Of a stretch of DNA of 38,652 nucleotides, positions 2,009-12,091 are shown piece by piece (the first letter of the stretch is position 1; each line of letters starts with the position of its first letter). The translations under genes and the position numbers were made by a program. The stretch covers positions 1-38,652 of the forward strand of contig CADBKM010000014.1 in assembly GCA_902795265.1 (NCBI GenBank), written 5' to 3'. Source of the DNA: an uncultured Eubacteriales bacterium (GTDB taxonomy: Bacteria; Bacillota; Clostridia; Peptostreptococcales; Anaerovoracaceae). The notes beneath the pieces were generated by a model, which saw only the letters and a program-made list of their open reading frames with translations, had not been told where the DNA came from and searched no databases.

Positions 2009-2037
2009 TTGACATAACACATTGATGTTGTTATAGT
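2009..2037 (+). promoter_or_regulatory. Consensus promoter of the metNIQ leader
   Basis: TTGACA (2009-2014) and TATAGT (2032-2037) are separated by exactly 17 bases, a near-perfect housekeeping promoter. Transcription should start near 2044, about 31 bases before the leader ORF. An inverted repeat ATAACA (2014-2019) / TGTTAT (2029-2034) sits across the spacer and both boxes, where a repressor could compete with RNA polymerase. Confidence 0.85.
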
Positions 2038-2074
2038 TCGTCTTGAACTTATTCTATGAAAGGAGCACATTCAC

Positions 2075-2140
2075 ATGACAAGAAACATGATGATGGAAAT
2101 GGGAATGATGGGCATGTGCATGTGCAGAGCCGATGAATAG
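2075..2140 (+). CDS. Methionine-rich leader peptide upstream of metN
   Basis: This 21-codon ORF is preceded by AAGGAG (2060-2065), nine bases before its ATG. The peptide begins MTRNMMMEMG, continues MMGMCMC and ends RADE. Nine of 21 residues are Met, including MMM and MM runs, with two Cys among them. It lies just after a consensus promoter and is followed within 23 bases by a terminator hairpin that precedes metN. That is the layout of amino-acid leader peptides such as those of trp, his and leu, where ribosome stalling on codons for the scarce amino acid controls read-through. I infer that the peptide senses Met-tRNA charging and that the product itself has no other role. A Met/Cys-rich metal-binding microprotein is the alternative, but the context argues against it. 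Confidence 0.85.
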   Translation: MTRNMMMEMGMMGMCMCRADE

Positions 2141-2197
2141 CAATTCTCATGTGTGGGATTGCCGGGGCAGGTCGTTAAGACCTGCCCCGTATATTTT
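2140..2197 (+). terminator. Attenuator-like terminator between leader ORF and metN
   Basis: An 11-bp perfect stem CGGGGCAGGTC (2163-2173) / GACCTGCCCCG (2179-2189) with loop GTTAA is followed by TATATTTT, the form of an intrinsic terminator. It ends 17 bases before the metN ATG, so it lies inside the leader rather than after a gene. Immediately upstream, 2140-2147 pairs with 2155-2162 (GCAAT/ATTGC core) in a hairpin that begins at the leader stop codon. Other possible pairings are 2066-2077 with 2113-2124 (11 of 12 pairs), and 2110-2117 in the Met codon region with the terminator 3' arm 2180-2187 (7 of 8). Which of them forms the antiterminator cannot be decided by eye. Confidence 0.8.
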
Positions 2198-2214
2198 GCA
2201 AAGAAAGGGTAAAC

Positions 2215-3252
2215 ATGGCAGAACACATCATAAGCCTGCAGGGCGTGACCAAGGAGTTCGATACCAAGGGCGGAAAGGTAGTCGCACTCAGGGATATCAA
2301 CCTCGATATCGAAAAAGGCGACTCATACGGTATCATCGGTCTCTCCGGCGCAGGCAAATCGACACTTGTAAGAACGATCAACCTGCTTGAGCAGCCGACC
2401 GAAGGTAAGGTGCTCTTTGACGGGAACTTGCTGACGGGTCTCAAGGGAAAGGACCTCAATCTGCACAGGCGCAAGATCTCAATGATATTTCAGCAGTTCA
2501 ATCTGCTGATGCAGAGAGATGCGCTGGGCAACATACTTTTTCCACTCGAGATAGCCGGTGTTCCTAAACAGGAGGCGATCGAAAAGGCAAAGGAACTGCT
2601 CAAGGTGGTAGACCTCGAAGAAAGAGCTCACTCGTATCCGTCGCAGCTCTCGGGTGGTCAGAAACAGAGAGTTGCCATAGCAAGAGCTTTGGCTTCCGAC
2701 CCTGAAGTCATCCTCTGCGATGAAGCTACATCAGCTCTCGACCCAAAAACGACAAGGTCCATTCTCGGTCTTCTTAAAAAGATCAACGAGGAGAGGGGAA
2801 TCACGCTGGTGGTCATCACTCACGAGATGGAAGTTATCAAGCAGCTCTGCGGCAAAGTAGCGGTAATTGAAAACGGCGAGATCGTAGAGAGAGGGCCTGT
2901 GGCTGAGATATTCGCGAGACCTAAGACGAAAGCCGCAAAGAAGCTGTTCTTCCCGGATGAGGAGAACAGGGAGAAAGCAGAGGCAAGGACTTCAACGAAA
3001 AACAGACTGAGACTGGCTTTCGACGAAAGCTCAGCATACAAGCCTATCATCGCGAACATGATACTCGAGACGGGTGCGCCGGTAAACTTCTTCTATGCTG
3101 ATCTGGACATGCTCGGGGGTGAGCAGAAGGGCCAGATGGTAATAGGACTTTCAGAGGATAAAATCCTGGCTGAAAAGCAGAAGGAATATCTCAGAAAAGA
3201 AAAGGTCGAATTCATTGAACTCAACGAAGATGCAGAGGAGGTGGCAGAATAA
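2215..3252 (+). CDS. metN: Methionine ABC transporter ATP-binding protein
   Basis: The 345-residue protein is the cytoplasmic ATPase of the MetNIQ importer for methionine and its derivatives. The ABC domain carries Walker A GLSGAGKST (42-50), the Q-loop region IFQQFNLL, signature LSGGQKQR (145-152) and Walker B VILCDE (165-170). The C-terminal part (about 270-340) looks like the NIL domain that binds methionine and feeds back on transport in MetN proteins. The start follows AAAGAAAGGG by four bases. The gene is first after the Met leader and terminator, and its stop overlaps the metI start (TAATG at 3250-3254 region). Length and motifs fit the family fully. Confidence 0.96.
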   Translation: MAEHIISLQGVTKEFDTKGGKVVALRDINLDIEKGDSYGIIGLSGAGKSTLVRTINLLEQPTEGKVLFDGNLLTGLKGKDLNLHRRKISMIFQQFNLLMQRDALGNILFPLEIAGVPKQEAIEKAKELLKVVDLEERAHSYPSQLSGGQKQRVAIARALASDPEVILCDEATSALDPKTTRSILGLLKKINEERGITLVVITHEMEVIKQLCGKVAVIENGEIVERGPVAEIFARPKTKAAKKLFFPDEENREKAEARTSTKNRLRLAFDESSAYKPIIANMILETGAPVNFFYADLDMLGGEQKGQMVIGLSEDKILAEKQKEYLRKEKVEFIELNEDAEEVAE

Positions 3253-3914
3253 TGAGTTTACAGGAACTGTTCAGCCTTCTCGGACATGGCACACTGGATT
3301 CCCTGTACATGATCATAATCTGTACTGTGGTTTCATACATAATAGGCCTGCCGATCGGAGTATCGCTCGTGGTGACAGCACCGGGAGGAATCAGACCGCT
3401 GGGCATCTATAACAAAGTCGTCGGATTCATAGTAAATATTCTCAGGTCGGTACCGTTCCTGATCCTGATGATCGCTTTGATGCCTTACATCCGTGTGGTG
3501 ATCGGCACAGGTATCGGCAAGGAGGCCGCGACAGCAGCTCTGATAGTAGCTGCTGCACCGTTCGTAGCCAGACTGGTGGAGCAGTCACTGCTCGAAGTCG
3601 ATCCGGGAGTCATAGAAGCAGCACAGGCCATGGGAGCGAGCAATATGCAGATCATCCGCAAGGTAATGCTGCTTGAGGCGAGGCCTTCACTCCTTAACGG
3701 AGCAGCGGTGGCTACGATCAACATCCTCGGCTACACGGCAATGGCGGGTATCGTCGGAGCCGGCGGTCTCGGAGAGATCGCAATAAGGTTCGGACTTTAC
3801 AGATTCCAGCCGTCAATAATGTGGGTCACAATAGTGCTTTTGGTAATAATGGTACAGATATTCCAGGAGATCGGAATAAAAGTCGTGAGCAAATACGACA
3901 ACCGCATAAACTAG
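3252..3914 (+). CDS. metI: Methionine ABC transporter permease
   Basis: The 220-residue, highly hydrophobic protein has about five membrane helices, as in MetI. The cytoplasmic coupling loop that contacts MetN is seen as EAAQAMGASNMQIIRKV (about residues 121-137). It is followed by the typical C-terminal segment GYTAMAGIVGAGGLGEIAIRFG. It forms the membrane channel of the methionine importer. The ATG overlaps the last base of the metN stop codon, so translation of the two is probably coupled. A 76-base gap without a convincing terminator separates it from metQ. Confidence 0.96.
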   Translation: MSLQELFSLLGHGTLDSLYMIIICTVVSYIIGLPIGVSLVVTAPGGIRPLGIYNKVVGFIVNILRSVPFLILMIALMPYIRVVIGTGIGKEAATAALIVAAAPFVARLVEQSLLEVDPGVIEAAQAMGASNMQIIRKVMLLEARPSLLNGAAVATINILGYTAMAGIVGAGGLGEIAIRFGLYRFQPSIMWVTIVLLVIMVQIFQEIGIKVVSKYDNRIN

Positions 3915-3990: not shown

Positions 3991-4821
3991 ATGAAGAACA
4001 TCAAGAGATTCAGCATTCTGGCCGCAGTACTCGTACTCACACTCACTATCCTCTCCGCATGCGGCGGTGGCGGCGGAAACGGAGATGCAGCAGACAAGAC
4101 GATCAAGGTAGCAGCATCGCCTACACCTCACGCAGAGATCCTCAACTCAGTTGCAGATGCTCTCGCAGCAGAGGGTTGGACACTCGAAGTAGTGGAATTC
4201 GATGATTATGTACAGCCAAACGTAGCAACTACTGACGGCGATGTAGACGCCAACTACTTCCAGCACGTTCCTTACCTCGATCAGTACAATTCTGAGAACG
4301 GCACAGACCTCGTAGCTGTAGGAAACGTTCACTACGAAGCAATGGGAGTTTACAAGGGCACAAAGAACAGCTTTGATGAGCTCGCAGACGGCGACAAGAT
4401 CGGCGTTCCTAACGATGTAACCAACGAAGCAAGAGCTCTTCAGCTGCTCGCTGCAAACGGTGTCATCACACTTAAGGACGGTGTCGGCCTCGAGGCTACA
4501 AAGCTCGATATCGTAGATAATCCAAAGAACATTGAGATCGTTGAGCTCGAAGCTGCAACTATTCCAAGCGCACTTCCTGACCTCGCATTTGGTGTTATCA
4601 ACGCAAACTACGCTCTCGGCGCAGGCCTCACAACAGACAACGCCGTAGCATATGAAGCTGCTGATTCAGAGGCTGCCGAGACATACGTCAACGTTATTGT
4701 AGTCAAGGCAGGCAACGAAGAGAACGAGAAGACACAGGCTCTCGTTAAGGCTGTTCAGTCTGACACCGTCAAGAACTTCATCCTCGACACATACAACGGC
4801 GCTGTACAGCCAAAGTTCTAG
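3991..4821 (+). CDS. metQ: Methionine-binding lipoprotein
   Basis: The 276-residue protein begins with a lipoprotein signal peptide: a KNIKR basic start, a hydrophobic core, and lipobox LSAC with Cys at residue 24. A Gly-rich linker and the MetQ/NlpA-type binding fold follow (IKVAASPTPHAEIL, then YFQHVPYLDQY and FGVINANYAL). It should be anchored on the outer face of the membrane and hand methionine to MetI-MetN. The ribosome site is GAAAGGGA. The gene is third in the operon, as in many Firmicutes. Substrate specificity for L- or D-methionine cannot be read from sequence. Confidence 0.96.
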   Translation: MKNIKRFSILAAVLVLTLTILSACGGGGGNGDAADKTIKVAASPTPHAEILNSVADALAAEGWTLEVVEFDDYVQPNVATTDGDVDANYFQHVPYLDQYNSENGTDLVAVGNVHYEAMGVYKGTKNSFDELADGDKIGVPNDVTNEARALQLLAANGVITLKDGVGLEATKLDIVDNPKNIEIVELEAATIPSALPDLAFGVINANYALGAGLTTDNAVAYEAADSEAAETYVNVIVVKAGNEENEKTQALVKAVQSDTVKNFILDTYNGAVQPKF

Positions 4822-5698: not shown

Positions 5699-8600
5699 AT
5701 GGCAGGTAATTTTATAAAAGTAGATAAATGGGGCGAATGTCTCTGGGGAATCGACGAAAACGGCAACCTCCTTATCGACGGAGGAATGGCCGCTGACCTT
5801 GGTGATGAAGGCGCACCATGGAAAGGATACGAAGACGCGATAACATCTGTTGTTGCGGCACGCGGCGTCAGCTTCCCTGAAGGAACCTCGCTGGCGGGAC
5901 TGTTCAGAGGCTGCAGAAAAATGATCAAGGCTGATCTCAGCGGCTTCGATACATCGAATGTAATCAGAATGGATTCCATGTTCGAAGGGTGTGCTCACCT
6001 TTCAGAGCTCGACATCTCTTCGTTCGATACCGGCCGCTGCGTGGACATGAGCAGGATGTTTGCCCAGTGCGCAGACCTCGACGACATACTTCTCGGTGAA
6101 AATTTCAATACCGAGGGCAACGGCGGCACGAGCTGCGGCAGACTTGCTGTAAAAGGATACGGCAAGTACAAAAAGGCAAAGCCAATCGTTGTAGAAGGAT
6201 TCAGAGTTCTTTATCACAGCAACTTCGGCAGCGGCTTCGAAGATGTTATCGAAGAAAGACAGACCATACCTAACGTGGTATACACAACAGAGACACCTAT
6301 GTTCGAAAAGCCTGATGAGAGCTGGAAGTTCATGGAGTGGAACACAAGACCAGACGCGAACGGCAGCAGCATAGGCGCGGGCGAAGAAACGGGCGTACTC
6401 GACAGAGATATCGATCTGTACGCAATCTGGGGACAGAGACCTAAAGTAGGCGAAATCAAGGAGCCTGACACATTTAAGTTCGGCGAGCAGATACCGTTCG
6501 AGCTGCCTGAGATCATCTCGGCTCATGATCCTGAAGTCACCGGCTATCTCGAGATAAGCAGAACCGGCGAAGACGGTACTTGGAACGCTATCAATCACGA
6601 CGCTATACTGCCTGTCGCTTGTGACGGTTATTATCTGAGACTTCACGTAGCCAACAGCATAGGAGAGGCCCTTTCGAATGTCGTAAGACTGCATATCGAA
6701 AGAGCTAATATCGATACATCCGGTGTGCGCTGGGCTGAAGACGAAAGCATGACTTATGACGGCAGCGTAAAGCATGTATGGCTCGAAGGTCTTCCTGAGG
6801 GTTTAGTACCTAGCTATATTGGAAATGAGGCTGTCGAGGCAGGTACTTACACTGCATCAATCAGCTTCGATTTCGACCAGGATAACTTCAACGAGCCTCT
6901 CATAGTGCGCGAACATGAATGGACAATACGCAAGGGCAGCTACGATATGTCTCAGGCTGCCTGGGACTATGAAGGCGCTTTCGGCTACGACGGAGAGACT
7001 CACGGCGTAGCACTGAAGGGTCTGCCTGAAGGAGTGACCGCCCGTTATGAAGACAATACGGCATCAAATGCCGGAGTCTACACAGCGAAGGCTCAGTTCG
7101 ATTATGACAGCAAGAACTTCGAGAAGCCGCAGGATATGGCTCCTTGCGTATGGGAAATAAAGAAGGTCGAAGTGGACGCATCTGCCCTTGAGTGGTCGGG
7201 ATGCGAAGACTTCGTTTATGACGGAACTCCTAAGAATGTGTTCATCACGAATCTGCCTGAAGGTGCAGAGATCGAATACGACGGAGCTGAAGAGACACAG
7301 GCGGGCAAGTATCTTGCCAGAGCAGCGCTCAGAGGCAATTACTGCTTCACCGGTCCTGCAGAGTATGAGTGGGAGATCGCAAAGGCTTCATACGATATGT
7401 CGGGCGCCGCATGGTCAGCCACCACGGAATTCGTATATGACGGAGAGACCCATGGCGTGAATCTTGCGTCTTACCCTGAAGAACTCGGTGTAAAATACAG
7501 CGGCTGCGAAGGAAGAGCCGCCGGCGATTATGTTGCCCGCGCTTCCTTCACCAACCCTGATACACACAATTTCAATACTCCTGACGATATGACTCTCGGA
7601 TGGAGGATCGGAAAGAAGACTCTCGACATGTCGGGTGTCAGATGGAACTACAGCGGTCCTTTCACATATGACGGAGAGGCCAAGCAGGTTGAACTCGAAG
7701 GACTGCCTGAAGGCGTTTATGCCGAGTACGAAAACGCTTCGGCATATGACGCAGGCATTTACAACGCTCATGCCAATCTCAAATTTGACAGGGATAATCT
7801 TGAAGCTGCTTCCCCTGCGGACTGCAGCTGGAGGATCATCAAGAGCCGCATAGATATCTCAGATGTATGCTGGAACTATTCCGATCCGTTTGAATATGAC
7901 GGAAATCAGCACAGCATCTGCCTTGTGAATGTACCTGAAGGTGTCGAAGTCGAGTACAGCGGCAATACTGCTGTTGAAGCCGGCAGATATGCAGCCAGCG
8001 CGGTGCTCGTGCCGACCGATCCGGGCAATTATGAAGTGCCTGAGATAAACGGCTGCGCATGGTCGATCGACAAGGCTGAACTGAAGATGCCTCAGCTCGC
8101 GTGGACTGACTCATCAGACTTCGTCTACGACGGAAGCGAGAAGAGTGTAAAGATAATCAACGACCTCGGAAATCTGGTCAATGTGGAATATACCGGTAAT
8201 TCCGAGACCGGAGCGGGCAGATACTATGCCAAGGCAATGTTCACTCCTGTCGACAGCGACAACTTCAGAGCACCTGCTCCTGCGGGACACTCATGGAGCA
8301 TCAATAAGGCGGAATCCGATATGAGCGGCGCTCACTGGGATTACAGCGAAGCGTTCGTATATGACGGCAGCCCTAAAACAGTTAAGGTAACAGGACTCCC
8401 TGAAGGAGTTTCGGCTGAGTATGTGAATGCGACCGAGACCGATGCCGGAGCCTACACTTCGACTGCAAAATTCAGTGTCGATGACCCTGACAACTACGAA
8501 AACAACATTCCTGACATGATGCTCGACTGGAAGATCAGCAAGGCAGCGTTCGACATGAGCGAGGTCAGATGGCAGGAGAACAGAGAATTCGCGTTCGACG

Positions 8601-11600
8601 GAGATGACAAGGGCATAAGGCTCACGGGACTTCCTGAGGGGCTCAGCGCTGAGTACAGCGGAAACACTGCATCTGCAGCCGGCGAATATACGGCAAGAGC
8701 TGTGTTCGATTACGATGAAAAGAACTATGAGAAGCCTGAGATCGCAGCGTGCCGCTGGATGATCGGCAGATCGCCTGTCGATGTTTCCGCGGTGACATGG
8801 GATTACGTTGACGCGTTTGTTTACGACGGCACAGATAAGACCGTTGCGGTCAGAAACATCCCTGAGGGCTCTTCGGTAACATACAATAACGCGAGAGCAA
8901 GCCAGGCCGGAACATACGTTGCGGCAGCCGAGATCGTACCTGACGATACAGACAATCTCGTCAAGGCAAGGGCTCAGAACCTCACATGGAGGATCGACAA
9001 GGGCAACTACGACATGAGCCATGTCCGCTGGGATTACGAGAGACCGTTCACATATGACGGAAGTGAGTTCAGAGTCGTTCTGAAGGGCCTGCCTGAAGGC
9101 GTTCTGCCTTCATACAGAGGCAACACTGCCCGCGATGCCGGCACATACAAGGCAAGCGTAACGTTTACAGCTTCTGACAGCCGCAATTACCACACTCCTG
9201 AACCGATGGATCTCGAGTGGACTGTAAAGAAGGCTGACTACGATATGTCGGGCGCTTCATGGGATTACGAAGGCGCGTTCAAATATAACGGAAAGATGCA
9301 CGAAGTTACGCTCAGAGGACTTCCTGAAGGAGTAAGAGCTGTATACTCGGGCAATGCAGCTGCCAACACGGGTGCTTACGAGGCATCCGCGGAGCTCATC
9401 CCTTATGATTCACTCAACTACAATCAGCCTCACGTGGAGAGCTGCAAGTGGGAGGTCGAAAAAGCCGATTACGACATGTCGGCAGTCAGATGGGATTACA
9501 ACGGACCGAAGCTGTTCAACGGAAGAGAGCAGATCATCATGCTCGATCAGCTTCCGCACGGCATCAAGGCTTACTACTCGGGTAACGAGGGCAGAGATGC
9601 CGGAAGATATACAGCCAAGGCTCTGCTTACGGTAACCGACCCTGAAAACTACAACACACCATCTGTTCCGGACTGTGACTGGGAGATCAGCAGAGCTGAC
9701 TACAACATGGAGTCTGTCAGCTGGGATTACGAACCGGGCAGCTTTGTATATGACGGAGACAGAAAAACAGTCGAGCTGAATGGCCTGCCTGCAAATGTAA
9801 CTGCTTCGTATAACGAGAACAGCGCGGTCAGAGCCGGAAGATACACGGCTACCGCAAACTTCGCGACATCGGACGGCAACTTCCGCGCACCTGACCCTGT
9901 AAGCGTCGACTGGAGCATCGAAAAGGCTGACTACGACATGAGCGGAGCAGCATGGGATTATGACGGCAGCTTCGTATATGACGGAACGCCTAAGAAAGTG
10001 CAGCTCACAGGAATACCTGAGGGTGTAAGCGTAAGGTATGAGGGCAATACCGCTGTTGACGCCGGAAGCTACAGGGCTACGGCATGGTTCGATATCGATA
10101 CGGCTGACTTCAATGTGCCTGAAAGCCTCAGCTGCGACTGGGCGATCGAGAAGGCAGACCCTGATATCCGCAGACTCAGATGGGATTACTCGCAGCCATA
10201 TATATATGACGGAAGCGAAAAGACAGTAAAACTCGAAGGAGTTCCTGAGACCCTCGATGTCACATACAGCGGCGGAGCTGCTGCGAACGTAGGCGCTTAC
10301 ACGGCACATGCCGAGCTCACTCCAAAGGACCCTGCAAACTACAACGGAACATCGATCAGGGACTGCAGCTGGAACATCATAAAGGCTTACTACGATATGT
10401 CGGGAGCAAGATGGGAAGGCGCATTCAGATCTGTATATGACGGAAGCGAGAAGTCGGTCTACGTTGCCGGACTGCCTGAGGGAGTGAAGCCTGTCTACAG
10501 CGGAAACACAGGAATCAACGCGGGCAGCTACAGCGCGTCTGTTGAATTCGAATGCGATACAGACAACTATCACATGCCTTCCATGGACGGATGCGAATGG
10601 AGCATCGGCAAGGCTTCGTACGACATGTCCAAGGCAGTATGGCAGGGAACGACAGGTTCCGTATATGACGGAAGCGTAAAGAGCGTTGCGCTTGCCGGAC
10701 TCCCTGAGGGAATCAAACCTGTTTACTCAGGAAATACAGCTACTGATGCCGGAAAGTACGAGGCATCTGTCAGCTTCGAATACGATGCCGACAACTACGA
10801 ACAGCCTTCATTCGGCGGATGCAGCTGGGATATCGCTCCTGCAGCAGTTGAAGTAGACCCTGATGCGGTCATCTGGCAGTATGACGGACCATTCGTTTAT
10901 GACGGCACAGAAAAGGGCGTATATCTAGCCACAAAGACACGCGAGCTCGGACTCTTCGACAGGCTCCGCGGCATACAGCCTGAGGAATACCTCCCGGGAA
11001 TCCCTGAAGGCTTCGATGTGGTCTATGAAGGCGACAAGGCAACAGATGCCGGCGTATATTACGCAAAAGTAAAGCTGGTCAACAGAGCCCCTGGCAACTA
11101 TACAGAGCGTGAGCTTCCTGCATTCAAGTGGGAGATACTTAAGGCTCCTATAGACATGTCGGGCGTTCACTGGGATTACGAGAAGCCTTTCATCTTCGAC
11201 GGCGAAGAAAAGCAGATAAACCTCGTCGGACTTCCTGAAACAGTCGAGGTAAGCTACACCGGCAACAGAGGCATGAACTCAGGTGACTACGAGGCCATGG
11301 CTGAAGTAAGGGCAAAAGACCCTGTCAACTATGAGGCTCCGGCTCCTGTAAGCGGATGCTGGTGGCACATCGATAAATCCTGCTATGACATGAGCGGTGT
11401 TCACTGGGATTACGACGAAGAGTTCGTATACGACGGCAAAGAAAAGAGCGTAAGGCTCGTCGGACTGCCTGACGGAGTCAGAGTCGAGGCATATGTCGGC
11501 AACAAGGGTACTGAGGCCGGCGGATACACTGCAGAAGCAAGGCTCGGATACAGACACAAGGAAAACTTCGAGGCTCCATCCGTACCTGAACTCAGGTGGA

Positions 11601-12091
11601 GGATAGCCAAGAAGGTCATAGATGTTTCGGAAGCCAGATGGGATTACGATGAGGACACGAGATTCGTATATGACGAAAAGCCTAAAGAAGTAAAACTCGA
11701 GGGCGTTCCTGAAAAGGTAGAGGTAGTCTACACCGATAACAGCAGGATAAACGCGGGCACATATACGGCAAGAGCCAGACTCATCTATGACACACGCAAC
11801 TGCGAGGCTGCTCAGATACCTGATCTCAAGTGGAGGATCCACAAGGCTGAGATCGACACATCTGACGTGCACTGGACATACGACGGAGCGTTCGAGTATG
11901 ACGGAACCGAAAAGTCCATCACACTTGCGGGCGTGCCTGAACAGATCGCTGTCAGATACAGAGACAACAAGGCCACCGCTGCCGGCAGATACACCGCAAA
12001 GGCATATCTGACATATGACAGCGACAATTACGAGGCTCCTGAGATCGAGACAACGATAGATTGGGAGATAAAGGGCAAGGATACAGAATAA
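5699..12091 (+). CDS. Giant repeat protein (DUF285-like head, 23 MBG-like repeats), no signal peptide
   Basis: The 2130-residue protein starts with a non-repeated head. Residues 65-135 resemble the BspA/DUF285 surface-protein repeat (LSGFDTSNVIRMDSMFEGC, then SSFDTGRCVDMSRMF). About 190-245 resembles the Listeria-Bacteroides/InlB B-repeat (FMEWNTRPD, then LYAIW). From residue 337 to the end run 23 tandem repeats of about 78 residues. Such heads and repeats belong to secreted adhesin-like proteins. Yet the N-terminus MAGNFIKVDKW is no signal peptide, an in-frame stop lies five codons upstream of the start, and there is no LPXTG-type or membrane anchor at the C-terminus. The start has AGAAGGG ten bases upstream. 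The corC-like gene begins six bases after the stop and secA follows it. Location and function are unknown; an intracellular scaffold or a non-classically exported adhesin are both possible. Confidence 0.9.
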   Translation: MAGNFIKVDKWGECLWGIDENGNLLIDGGMAADLGDEGAPWKGYEDAITSVVAARGVSFPEGTSLAGLFRGCRKMIKADLSGFDTSNVIRMDSMFEGCAHLSELDISSFDTGRCVDMSRMFAQCADLDDILLGENFNTEGNGGTSCGRLAVKGYGKYKKAKPIVVEGFRVLYHSNFGSGFEDVIEERQTIPNVVYTTETPMFEKPDESWKFMEWNTRPDANGSSIGAGEETGVLDRDIDLYAIWGQRPKVGEIKEPDTFKFGEQIPFELPEIISAHDPEVTGYLEISRTGEDGTWNAINHDAILPVACDGYYLRLHVANSIGEALSNVVRLHIERANIDTSGVRWAEDESMTYDGSVKHVWLEGLPEGLVPSYIGNEAVEAGTYTASISFDFDQDNFNEPLIVREHEWTIRKGSYDMSQAAWDYEGAFGYDGETHGVALKGLPEGVTARYEDNTASNAGVYTAKAQFDYDSKNFEKPQDMAPCVWEIKKVEVDASALEWSGCEDFVYDGTPKNVFITNLPEGAEIEYDGAEETQAGKYLARAALRGNYCFTGPAEYEWEIAKASYDMSGAAWSATTEFVYDGETHGVNLASYPEELGVKYSGCEGRAAGDYVARASFTNPDTHNFNTPDDMTLGWRIGKKTLDMSGVRWNYSGPFTYDGEAKQVELEGLPEGVYAEYENASAYDAGIYNAHANLKFDRDNLEAASPADCSWRIIKSRIDISDVCWNYSDPFEYDGNQHSICLVNVPEGVEVEYSGNTAVEAGRYAASAVLVPTDPGNYEVPEINGCAWSIDKAELKMPQLAWTDSSDFVYDGSEKSVKIINDLGNLVNVEYTGNSETGAGRYYAKAMFTPVDSDNFRAPAPAGHSWSINKAESDMSGAHWDYSEAFVYDGSPKTVKVTGLPEGVSAEYVNATETDAGAYTSTAKFSVDDPDNYENNIPDMMLDWKISKAAFDMSEVRWQENREFAFDGDDKGIRLTGLPEGLSAEYSGNTASAAGEYTARAVFDYDEKNYEKPEIAACRWMIGRSPVDVSAVTWDYVDAFVYDGTDKTVAVRNIPEGSSVTYNNARASQAGTYVAAAEIVPDDTDNLVKARAQNLTWRIDKGNYDMSHVRWDYERPFTYDGSEFRVVLKGLPEGVLPSYRGNTARDAGTYKASVTFTASDSRNYHTPEPMDLEWTVKKADYDMSGASWDYEGAFKYNGKMHEVTLRGLPEGVRAVYSGNAAANTGAYEASAELIPYDSLNYNQPHVESCKWEVEKADYDMSAVRWDYNGPKLFNGREQIIMLDQLPHGIKAYYSGNEGRDAGRYTAKALLTVTDPENYNTPSVPDCDWEISRADYNMESVSWDYEPGSFVYDGDRKTVELNGLPANVTASYNENSAVRAGRYTATANFATSDGNFRAPDPVSVDWSIEKADYDMSGAAWDYDGSFVYDGTPKKVQLTGIPEGVSVRYEGNTAVDAGSYRATAWFDIDTADFNVPESLSCDWAIEKADPDIRRLRWDYSQPYIYDGSEKTVKLEGVPETLDVTYSGGAAANVGAYTAHAELTPKDPANYNGTSIRDCSWNIIKAYYDMSGARWEGAFRSVYDGSEKSVYVAGLPEGVKPVYSGNTGINAGSYSASVEFECDTDNYHMPSMDGCEWSIGKASYDMSKAVWQGTTGSVYDGSVKSVALAGLPEGIKPVYSGNTATDAGKYEASVSFEYDADNYEQPSFGGCSWDIAPAAVEVDPDAVIWQYDGPFVYDGTEKGVYLATKTRELGLFDRLRGIQPEEYLPGIPEGFDVVYEGDKATDAGVYYAKVKLVNRAPGNYTERELPAFKWEILKAPIDMSGVHWDYEKPFIFDGEEKQINLVGLPETVEVSYTGNRGMNSGDYEAMAEVRAKDPVNYEAPAPVSGCWWHIDKSCYDMSGVHWDYDEEFVYDGKEKSVRLVGLPDGVRVEAYVGNKGTEAGGYTAEARLGYRHKENFEAPSVPELRWRIAKKVIDVSEARWDYDEDTRFVYDEKPKEVKLEGVPEKVEVVYTDNSRINAGTYTARARLIYDTRNCEAAQIPDLKWRIHKAEIDTSDVHWTYDGAFEYDGTEKSITLAGVPEQIAVRYRDNKATAAGRYTAKAYLTYDSDNYEAPEIETTIDWEIKGKDTE
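6707..12076 (+). repeat. 23 tandem repeats of about 78 codons
   Basis: Each unit follows the plan YDMSGxxWDY, F-YDG, GLPEGV, Y-GN-A, AG-Y-A, NY-P, C-W-I-KA. Eleven units carry a single Cys just before the second Trp, and the others do not. Units range from about 73 to 78 residues. Unit 19 is about 100 residues, because 22 residues (10931-10996, starting TKTRELGLFDRLRG) are inserted before its GIPEGF motif. The plan resembles MBG-type bacterial immunoglobulin-like repeats. Units have diverged in sequence, so this is an old array rather than a recent expansion. Confidence 0.9.

Follow-up and report, generated by a model that had tools for sequence, protein, structure and literature searches.

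Methionine-Codon Leaders Upstream of metNIQ and Other Methionine Genes in the Anaerovoracaceae: A Candidate Set of Ribosome-Mediated Attenuators

The metNIQ Locus and Its Leader

The window, i.e., the whole stretch of 38,652 nucleotides analysed here, carries near its beginning three consecutive genes, metN, metI and metQ, preceded by a short leader (Table 1). Gene order and context support their identification as a MetNIQ importer. A gene resembling Asp/Glu/hydantoin racemases (PF01177; 4834–5538) starts 12 bases past metQ, and in a methionine-import operon such an enzyme might serve the conversion of imported D-methionine. Beyond the operon lies a gene (5699–12091) for a 2130-residue repeat protein, whose first 1000 residues exceed the Pfam cut-off for DUF285 and, by a narrow margin, that for an MBG domain.

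Table 1. Features of the leader and the importer operon (positions within the window).
Feature	Position	Strand	Basis or remark
Promoter TTGACA - 17 - TATAGT	2009–2037	+	11/12 consensus matches, extended −10 TG
Outer helix P1, 5′ strand CTTATTCTATG	2048–2058	+	partner CATAGGATAAG absent from the window copy
Ribosome-binding site of the leader ORF, AAAGGAG	2059–2065	+	conserved in relatives
Helix P2, 5′ strand GCACATTCACATG	2065–2077	+	over the SD end and start codon; 12/13 positions pair with 2113–2125
Met-rich leader ORF MTRNMMMEMGMMGMCMCRADE, stop included	2075–2140	+	frame kept in 32/32 readable genus copies
Helix P2, 3′ strand CATGTGCATGTGC	2113–2125	+	within the leader ORF
Stop-to-terminator region	2140–2162	+	predicted 8-bp hairpin in the window copy
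Terminator hairpin, 11 bp, loop GTTAA	2163–2189	+	terminator scan; covariation in relatives
T-rich tract TATATTTT	2190–2197	+	ends 17 bases short of the metN start codon (ATG, 2215)
metN, ATP-binding subunit	2215–3252	+	best NCBIfam TIGR02314 (MetN), below the curated cut-off
metI, permease	3252–3914	+	best NCBIfam NF008049 (MetI), below the curated cut-off
metQ, lipoprotein	3991–4821	+	best NCBIfam NF008285/TIGR00363 (MetQ), below the curated cut-offs

An earlier note, made from the letters of this DNA alone, had described a promoter, a ribosome site, a leader ORF of 21 codons with nine Met (the start included) and an 11-bp terminator in front of metNIQ, and re-analysis confirmed all of these. 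Within 1900–2300, one terminator-like site was found vs. 0.2 in shuffled sequences, and the leader (2044–2200) was predicted to fold more stably than its shuffles (z −3.1, 0/200). A whole-window Rfam scan at the gathering score returned a tRNA as the sole match, and at E up to 10 the stretch 1960–2300 gave just two chance-level matches to unrelated eukaryotic/archaeal families; neither the SAM riboswitch (RF00162) nor the T-box (RF00230) matched the window leader. In particular, a SAM riboswitch within 2044–2200, which the earlier note had named as a finding that would refute its reading, did not appear in the Rfam scans. A blastn search for a second leader copy in the same genome yielded weak hits only.

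Two simpler identities of the leader were rejected. A SAM riboswitch or T-box had no match either in the window or in the leader stretches of the family described below. An ordinary terminator of the upstream gene was discarded because a promoter, an ORF and, in relatives, an antiterminator strand lie between that gene and the hairpin and go with metN. Promoter-like sequences were also seen by eye upstream of many of the relatives' leaders.

Reading Frame and RNA Structures of the Leader within the Genus

A search at E≤1e-60 detected metN in 32 of the 35 other genus members (none in G007, G011 and G032), and since G018 and G019 each have two leaders, the 33 genomes, our own included, provided 35 copies. 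The Met-run core was present upstream of metN in all 33, just as the earlier note had expected of orthologous leaders, and likewise in G252, a genus genome drawn later. Four lower-identity second metN matches (L036–L039, 40–53% identity) showed no Met run when inspected by eye over up to 300 nt. Judged from these sequences, the Met leader upstream of metN is not a product of chance.

The ribosome site could be read together with the core in 32 of the 35 copies (not in L005, L011 and L017), and in each of the 32 the start codon is in frame with the Met core, at spacings of 24, 27, 30 or 33 nt and with 24 distinct N-terminal sequences in total. In each of the 30 copies with C[AG]TAGG, the P1 strand motif, the stop codon is no more than 7 nt away from it. 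A frame kept in this way is a hallmark of translation, and the leader ORF is, on sequence grounds, apparently translated. The core MGMMGMCMC is near-invariant: among 34 matched copies, the two Gly codons are GGA in 33 and GGC in 34, and the two Cys codons are TGC in 32 and 33. Nucleotide conservation in the genus alignment is strong beyond the ORF as well. A pattern scan of genome contigs, whose listed matches include many unrelated Met-rich proteins, supplied at least five further leaders differing from those in hand (L085, L104, L121, L144, L166), and a terminator is present in these too. The retention of the terminator in orthologous leaders, on which the earlier note had also staked its reading, holds with the exception of the truncated L007 and the contig-edge fragment L017. 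In L016, L017 and L018, a degenerate partial second leader ORF was seen by eye between the terminator and metN.

To describe the RNA structures, we used an alignment (A1) of 30 of the 35 genus copies, with shuffles and slid registers as controls; as the structures were drawn on one copy, L022, and the shuffles ignore relatedness, the numbers are biased towards these structures. The terminator was paired in 86.8% of cells, with 19 double-changed cells vs. 6.8 in shuffles (0/500) and at most 5 in slid registers. Helix P2, in which the 5′ strand GCACATTCACATG over the ribosome site meets CATGTGCATGTGC among the Met codons, was paired in 98.3%, with 3 double-changed cells vs. 0.3 in shuffles (0/500) and at most 1 in slid registers. 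In ungapped form, 12 of the 13 P2 positions pair in 29 of the 32 readable copies, the mismatch always falling at the same place, and L027, L033 and L035 show only partial pairing in that register. The clearest cases are L019, L028 and L029, where a Cys codon has become an Arg codon (TGC to CGC or CGT) along with a matching change in the opposite strand that keeps P2, which suggests that RNA pairing outweighed the peptide.

Helix P1, formed by CTTATTCTATG before the ribosome site and CATAGGATAAG right behind the stop, was paired in 94.4% of A1 cells vs. 24–66% in slid registers. Its covariation did not exceed our controls: 2 double-changed cells vs. up to 4 in two slid registers, and a score not above shuffles (146/500). 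P1 with different letters was nevertheless seen by eye in L033 (CTTTGTA/TACAAGG) and L121 (TTTAGTAT/GTACTAGG), and L035 had no P1 by eye. The antiterminator, in which AGGTCATAACGA after the stop pairs with TCGTTAGGACCT of the terminator loop and 3′ arm, was paired in 90.5% vs. 11–44% in slid registers; it had 4 double-changed cells vs. 0.9 in shuffles (0/500), but the +3 slid register had 5. A clear exchange, TAACAA with TTGTTA, is found in L029. Because slid registers match the double changes of P1 and of the antiterminator, covariation proper, beyond both controls, is confined to the terminator and P2. In these two, the search for covarying stems in related metN leaders that the earlier note had proposed was successful. 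A further helix, P3 (CATAG/CTATG), is uninformative because all its cells pair and none is double-changed.

The antiterminator was also approached by a pairing search of the terminator loop and 3′ arm against the whole leader, carried out with 12 copies chosen from the 35 and with letter rather than dinucleotide shuffles. For ten intact relatives, p was 0.006–0.052, and the best pairing fell on the same strand in 10/10. For the window copy (L001) and that of G033 (L010), the same search gave p 0.79 and 0.72. Between stop and terminator, relatives carry the antiterminator strand as well as the 3′ strand of P1; neither is present in L001 or L010, where the gaps differ. Thus, as read from a draft genome, the window copy looks like a natural deletion mutant, which keeps the promoter, the frame, P2 and the terminator but seems to have lost the antiterminator strand. 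Without this strand and the P1 3′ strand it illustrates a working switch poorly, and we would expect its transcripts mostly to end at the terminator, or its expression to stay at a basal level with no response, instead of being under proper control. The claim of the earlier note that the leader is a Met-specific attenuator gains from the relatives, which keep the Met codons, the terminator and the antiterminator, but fits less well the very copy for which it was made. Other copies have suffered elsewhere: L007 has lost the 3′ arm of the terminator, L011 the −10 region, the ribosome site (SD) and the start, and L020 the P1 5′ strand.

Distribution in the Family, Target Genes and Other Regulators

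A protein search at E≤1e-80 found metN in 71 of 197 genomes of the family. A leader was scored if it had at least four Met beyond the start, 16% Met and a ribosome site, and was located upstream of metN or, where metQ comes first, about 1.0–1.4 kb above; metQ of the family was called by position and a lipoprotein start, not by a profile. Met-rich leaders were found in 35 of these 71 genomes, comprising five genus members (G000, G005, G022, G023, G252), 19 with the leader before metN and 11 with the leader before metQ. By the same criterion no leader was found in 31, and a further 5 were not judgeable (G206, G090, G110 and G122 at contig ends; G165 not fetched). When the ORF criterion was run over both strands of the family loci (620,820 base-strand positions), it matched 30 times, 26 at the leader position and 4 elsewhere, with one leader counted twice (the overlapping L215/L310). 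A DNA pattern gave 108 matches (overlapping ones counted) in 68/197 genomes vs. 7 in 6 genomes for its reversed control, and several of the loci opened among these were ordinary protein genes; further leaders were obtained in this way from G099, G126 and G134 and from the metQ contigs of G077 and G204.

What these leader peptides have in common is their richness in Met, not their sequence. The 40 distinct peptides from outside the genus (one of them from another family) contain 22.6% Met, the start left out, and 7.0% Cys, as compared with 2.8% and 0.6% in five window proteins, and 30/40 include M-C-M or C-M-C. A strict terminator script was passed by 27 of 32 leaders tested outside the genus. 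In 27 non-genus leaders, the RNA following the Met run pairs with the terminator with a mean z of −1.18 vs. dinucleotide shuffles; singly, just 4/27 reach p<0.05, and the Stouffer value of 6.1 for the 27 is too high because relatives are not independent. The pairing stretch starts 21–57 nt before the stop, inside the ORF, in 19/27 (e.g., G086, G208 and G220), and there it would be covered by a ribosome standing at the stop. By these measures, the putative antiterminator pairing is weaker outside the genus.

Leaders of the same kind precede other genes. In genus g38, a Met-rich leader stands before metF in L331 (G204; MTHFR by profile) and L230 (G077), whose contig ends just inside metF, identified from its first residues; when 30 MTHFR loci were checked, the leader was found in L331 only. 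No MTHFR was found in the five members of our own genus that were searched, which fits a dependence on imported methionine. In genus g58, leaders lie before metG, encoding methionyl-tRNA synthetase: MKNTFFNRSMMGMRKRGGAAPL (G097, by eye), MANYIANRSMMGMRMRGRAALV (G171) and MRTYRINNSMMGMCMRGGAAPL (G239). Two of these three have no Cys, and in the g58 leaders the GATGCCC at the stop codon is complementary to the GGGCATC in the terminator hairpin. The fourth g58 genome, G212, had no metG leader within the 200 nt available, and no Met leader was seen at 30 other metG loci and 17 more, own genome included, with metG being present in 178 genomes. By eye, the metG leaders in L438:240-560 and L479 start about a dozen bases past a −10-like box and lack an evident ribosome site; they may thus be translated from leaderless transcripts. 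All the targets, i.e., metNIQ/metQNI, metF and metG, have to do with the supply of methionine or its charging onto tRNA.

In other families of the order, a Met leader was found at 2 of 63 metN loci, both in genus g13 of family f2 (L040, L351). When 20 of these loci (the 12 from f2 plus 8 others) were submitted to Rfam, a SAM riboswitch lay just upstream of metN in 14, a T-box in 3 and neither in 3, one of the last being the Met leader L351. Within our family, Rfam detected no SAM riboswitch or T-box in 100 stretches upstream of metN/metQ, consisting of 60 (of which L237–L276 reach just ~700 nt above metN) and a further 40, with some genomes represented twice and L196 belonging to the genus; the remaining Rfam matches were two tRNAs and, on the opposite strand of L417, a cobalamin riboswitch. 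A SAM riboswitch is found somewhere in the genome in 152/197 members of the family, and our own draft genome gave no RF00162 match. T-boxes are scarce in the genus, with 0–3 matches in each of 24 genomes vs. 7–26 in 16 genomes from other families of the order.

Candidate Mechanism, Rival Explanations and Known Systems

Taken together, the data make it likely that the element belongs to a family-wide set of transcription attenuators in which ribosomes translating Met codons would decide on termination. The alignments and searches provide for this the kept reading frame, the Met codons conserved while the sequence turns over, the terminator, the complementarity of the antiterminator, the covariation of P2 and the nature of the target genes. 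When charged elongator Met-tRNA is scarce, the ribosome would stall at the Met-codon runs of the leader; the RNA beyond the run would then be free to pair with the terminator as an antiterminator, and the polymerase would enter the methionine genes. With an ample supply of Met-tRNA, the ribosome would run on to the stop and cover the leader end and the RNA downstream, the terminator would form and transcription would stop. The direction of control, with starvation leading to read-through, is suggested by classical attenuator logic and by the position of the antiterminator strand; stalling itself and the signal are likewise inferred.

That the leader senses Met-tRNA charging was proposed in the earlier note and is still what we infer. 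A folding model at equilibrium, applied to truncated forms of four intact leaders with the ribosome represented by a mask, gave no ribosome-dependent switch: the antiterminator was brief and the terminator won in every state, and masking at the stop weakened the antiterminator for just one leader of the four. The antiterminator strand of the genus begins about 9 nt past the stop codon, close to where a ribosome footprint would end. A ribosome at the stop would thus cover the 3′ strand of P1 and reach the antiterminator just at its edge, so that P1 may itself be part of the switch.

A puzzle raised in the earlier note was that initiation, too, needs Met-tRNA. In the genus, P2 provides a plausible answer, since the late Met codons could pair with their own ribosome site. 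P2 may thereby admit only those ribosomes that have initiated ahead of transcription of the Met core, and late or failed initiation would leave the RNA untranslated. With initiation failing, P1 and P2 could both form and no ribosome would stand at the stop, so that the RNA may fold as if ribosome-free at its end. On the whole, we lean towards a wider view, held less firmly than the attenuator reading itself, in which the family runs a methionine regulon (import and, in some genera, MTHFR or metG) on Met-codon attenuators at sites where neighbouring families have SAM riboswitches or T-boxes, the Met codons of one genus serving both as the sensor and as a strand of the covarying helix that locks the ribosome site of the leader.

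The Met/Cys pattern by itself could also be read as an arrest peptide, whose nascent chain would bind a ligand within the ribosomal tunnel (methionine, SAM or some other sulfur compound) and stall the ribosome, the signal being this ligand and not tRNA charging. The near-invariant genus core and the M-C-M or C-M-C motifs in three quarters of the non-genus leaders are what one would expect of such a peptide, but between genera the peptide sequence turns over while Met richness stays, and two of the three metG leaders have no Cys at all. Moreover, the Cys-to-Arg replacements in L019, L028 and L029, each with its P2-preserving change, imply that part of the sequence constancy is an RNA constraint. 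We therefore consider an arrest peptide unlikely.

If RNA is what selection sees, the leader might be a ligand- or protein-binding RNA element with the ORF secondary to it, as the strong nucleotide conservation beyond the ORF and the large closed structure made by P1 and P2 would permit. Such an element would hardly require a frame kept over four spacings with variable letters; the leaders scanned match no Rfam family, and the RNA letters of the genus beyond the Met codons are not visibly (by eye) common to the leaders of other genera, all of which renders this reading quite improbable. Least credible of all is a small Met/Cys-rich protein with a job of its own, e.g., in metal or redox binding, followed by an ordinary terminator. 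Enrichment in Met and Cys is indeed known from metal-binding peptides, but a protein of this kind would have no obvious reason to be tied to metN, metQ, metF and metG along with a terminator and antiterminator anatomy, and it shows little sequence conservation between genera. The preferred reading remains that of Met-codon attenuators.

Ribosome-mediated attenuators are classically those of trp, his, leu, thr, phe and ilv genes. The Met leaders share with them a leader rich in the relevant codon, a terminator, and an antiterminator that pairs with RNA located at the leader end or beyond it; they differ in the amino acid, here methionine, with a codon that doubles as the start codon, and in the extra helix on the ribosome site of the leader. 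In Firmicutes, methionine control is usually attributed to SAM riboswitches, Met T-boxes or DNA-binding repressors. The first two resemble the Met leaders in position, lying just upstream of metN in 17/20 loci from other families of the order, but find no match in the Met leaders, and their mechanism needs no ORF. The classical attenuator scheme is outlined in the available text of PMC8079986 and PMC2965389, and the latter, as far as available, reports leader peptides in Firmicutes, none of them for methionine.

The earlier note knew of no described counterpart, and in this it has to be corrected with an example from Streptomyces, which belongs to a different phylum. In Streptomyces lividans TK24, a leader designated metL upstream of metNIQ is listed as an attenuator in the available text of PMC8079986. 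Like the leaders described here, metL is a short leader before metNIQ with Met and Cys codons, ending in CMCRRMCAF; unlike them, it has just two Met beyond the start, a leaderless transcript and, according to its authors, no typical terminator, and it comes from one genome, with no comparative test reported (PMC8079986, available text). Cys-codon leaders before cys operons of Actinobacteria (PMC1262725, available text) are similar in carrying codons for a sulfur amino acid in a leader ORF, and different in having runs of Cys and no conserved terminator hairpins; the same survey, in its available text, finds no RNA structure conserved upstream of methionine operons (PMC1262725). In the literature searched, which consisted mostly of papers outside subscription, we found no Met-codon attenuator backed by comparisons across a family. 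Leader-peptide attenuation is well known; what is new, as far as searched, is the breadth of the set, its terminator–antiterminator anatomy, the metF and metG targets and the P2 lock.

These leaders raise the question of how a sensor made of AUG codons tells a shortage of elongator from one of initiator Met-tRNA. The apparent natural deletions in the window genome and in G033, together with the recurrence of the leaders before the gene for methionyl-tRNA synthetase, make the model directly testable. One more leader was noted in G079 (L447:326-600), where a Met-rich ORF and a terminator precede a gene for an NMT1-like ABC substrate-binding protein, possibly belonging to an unrecognised importer of a sulfur compound.
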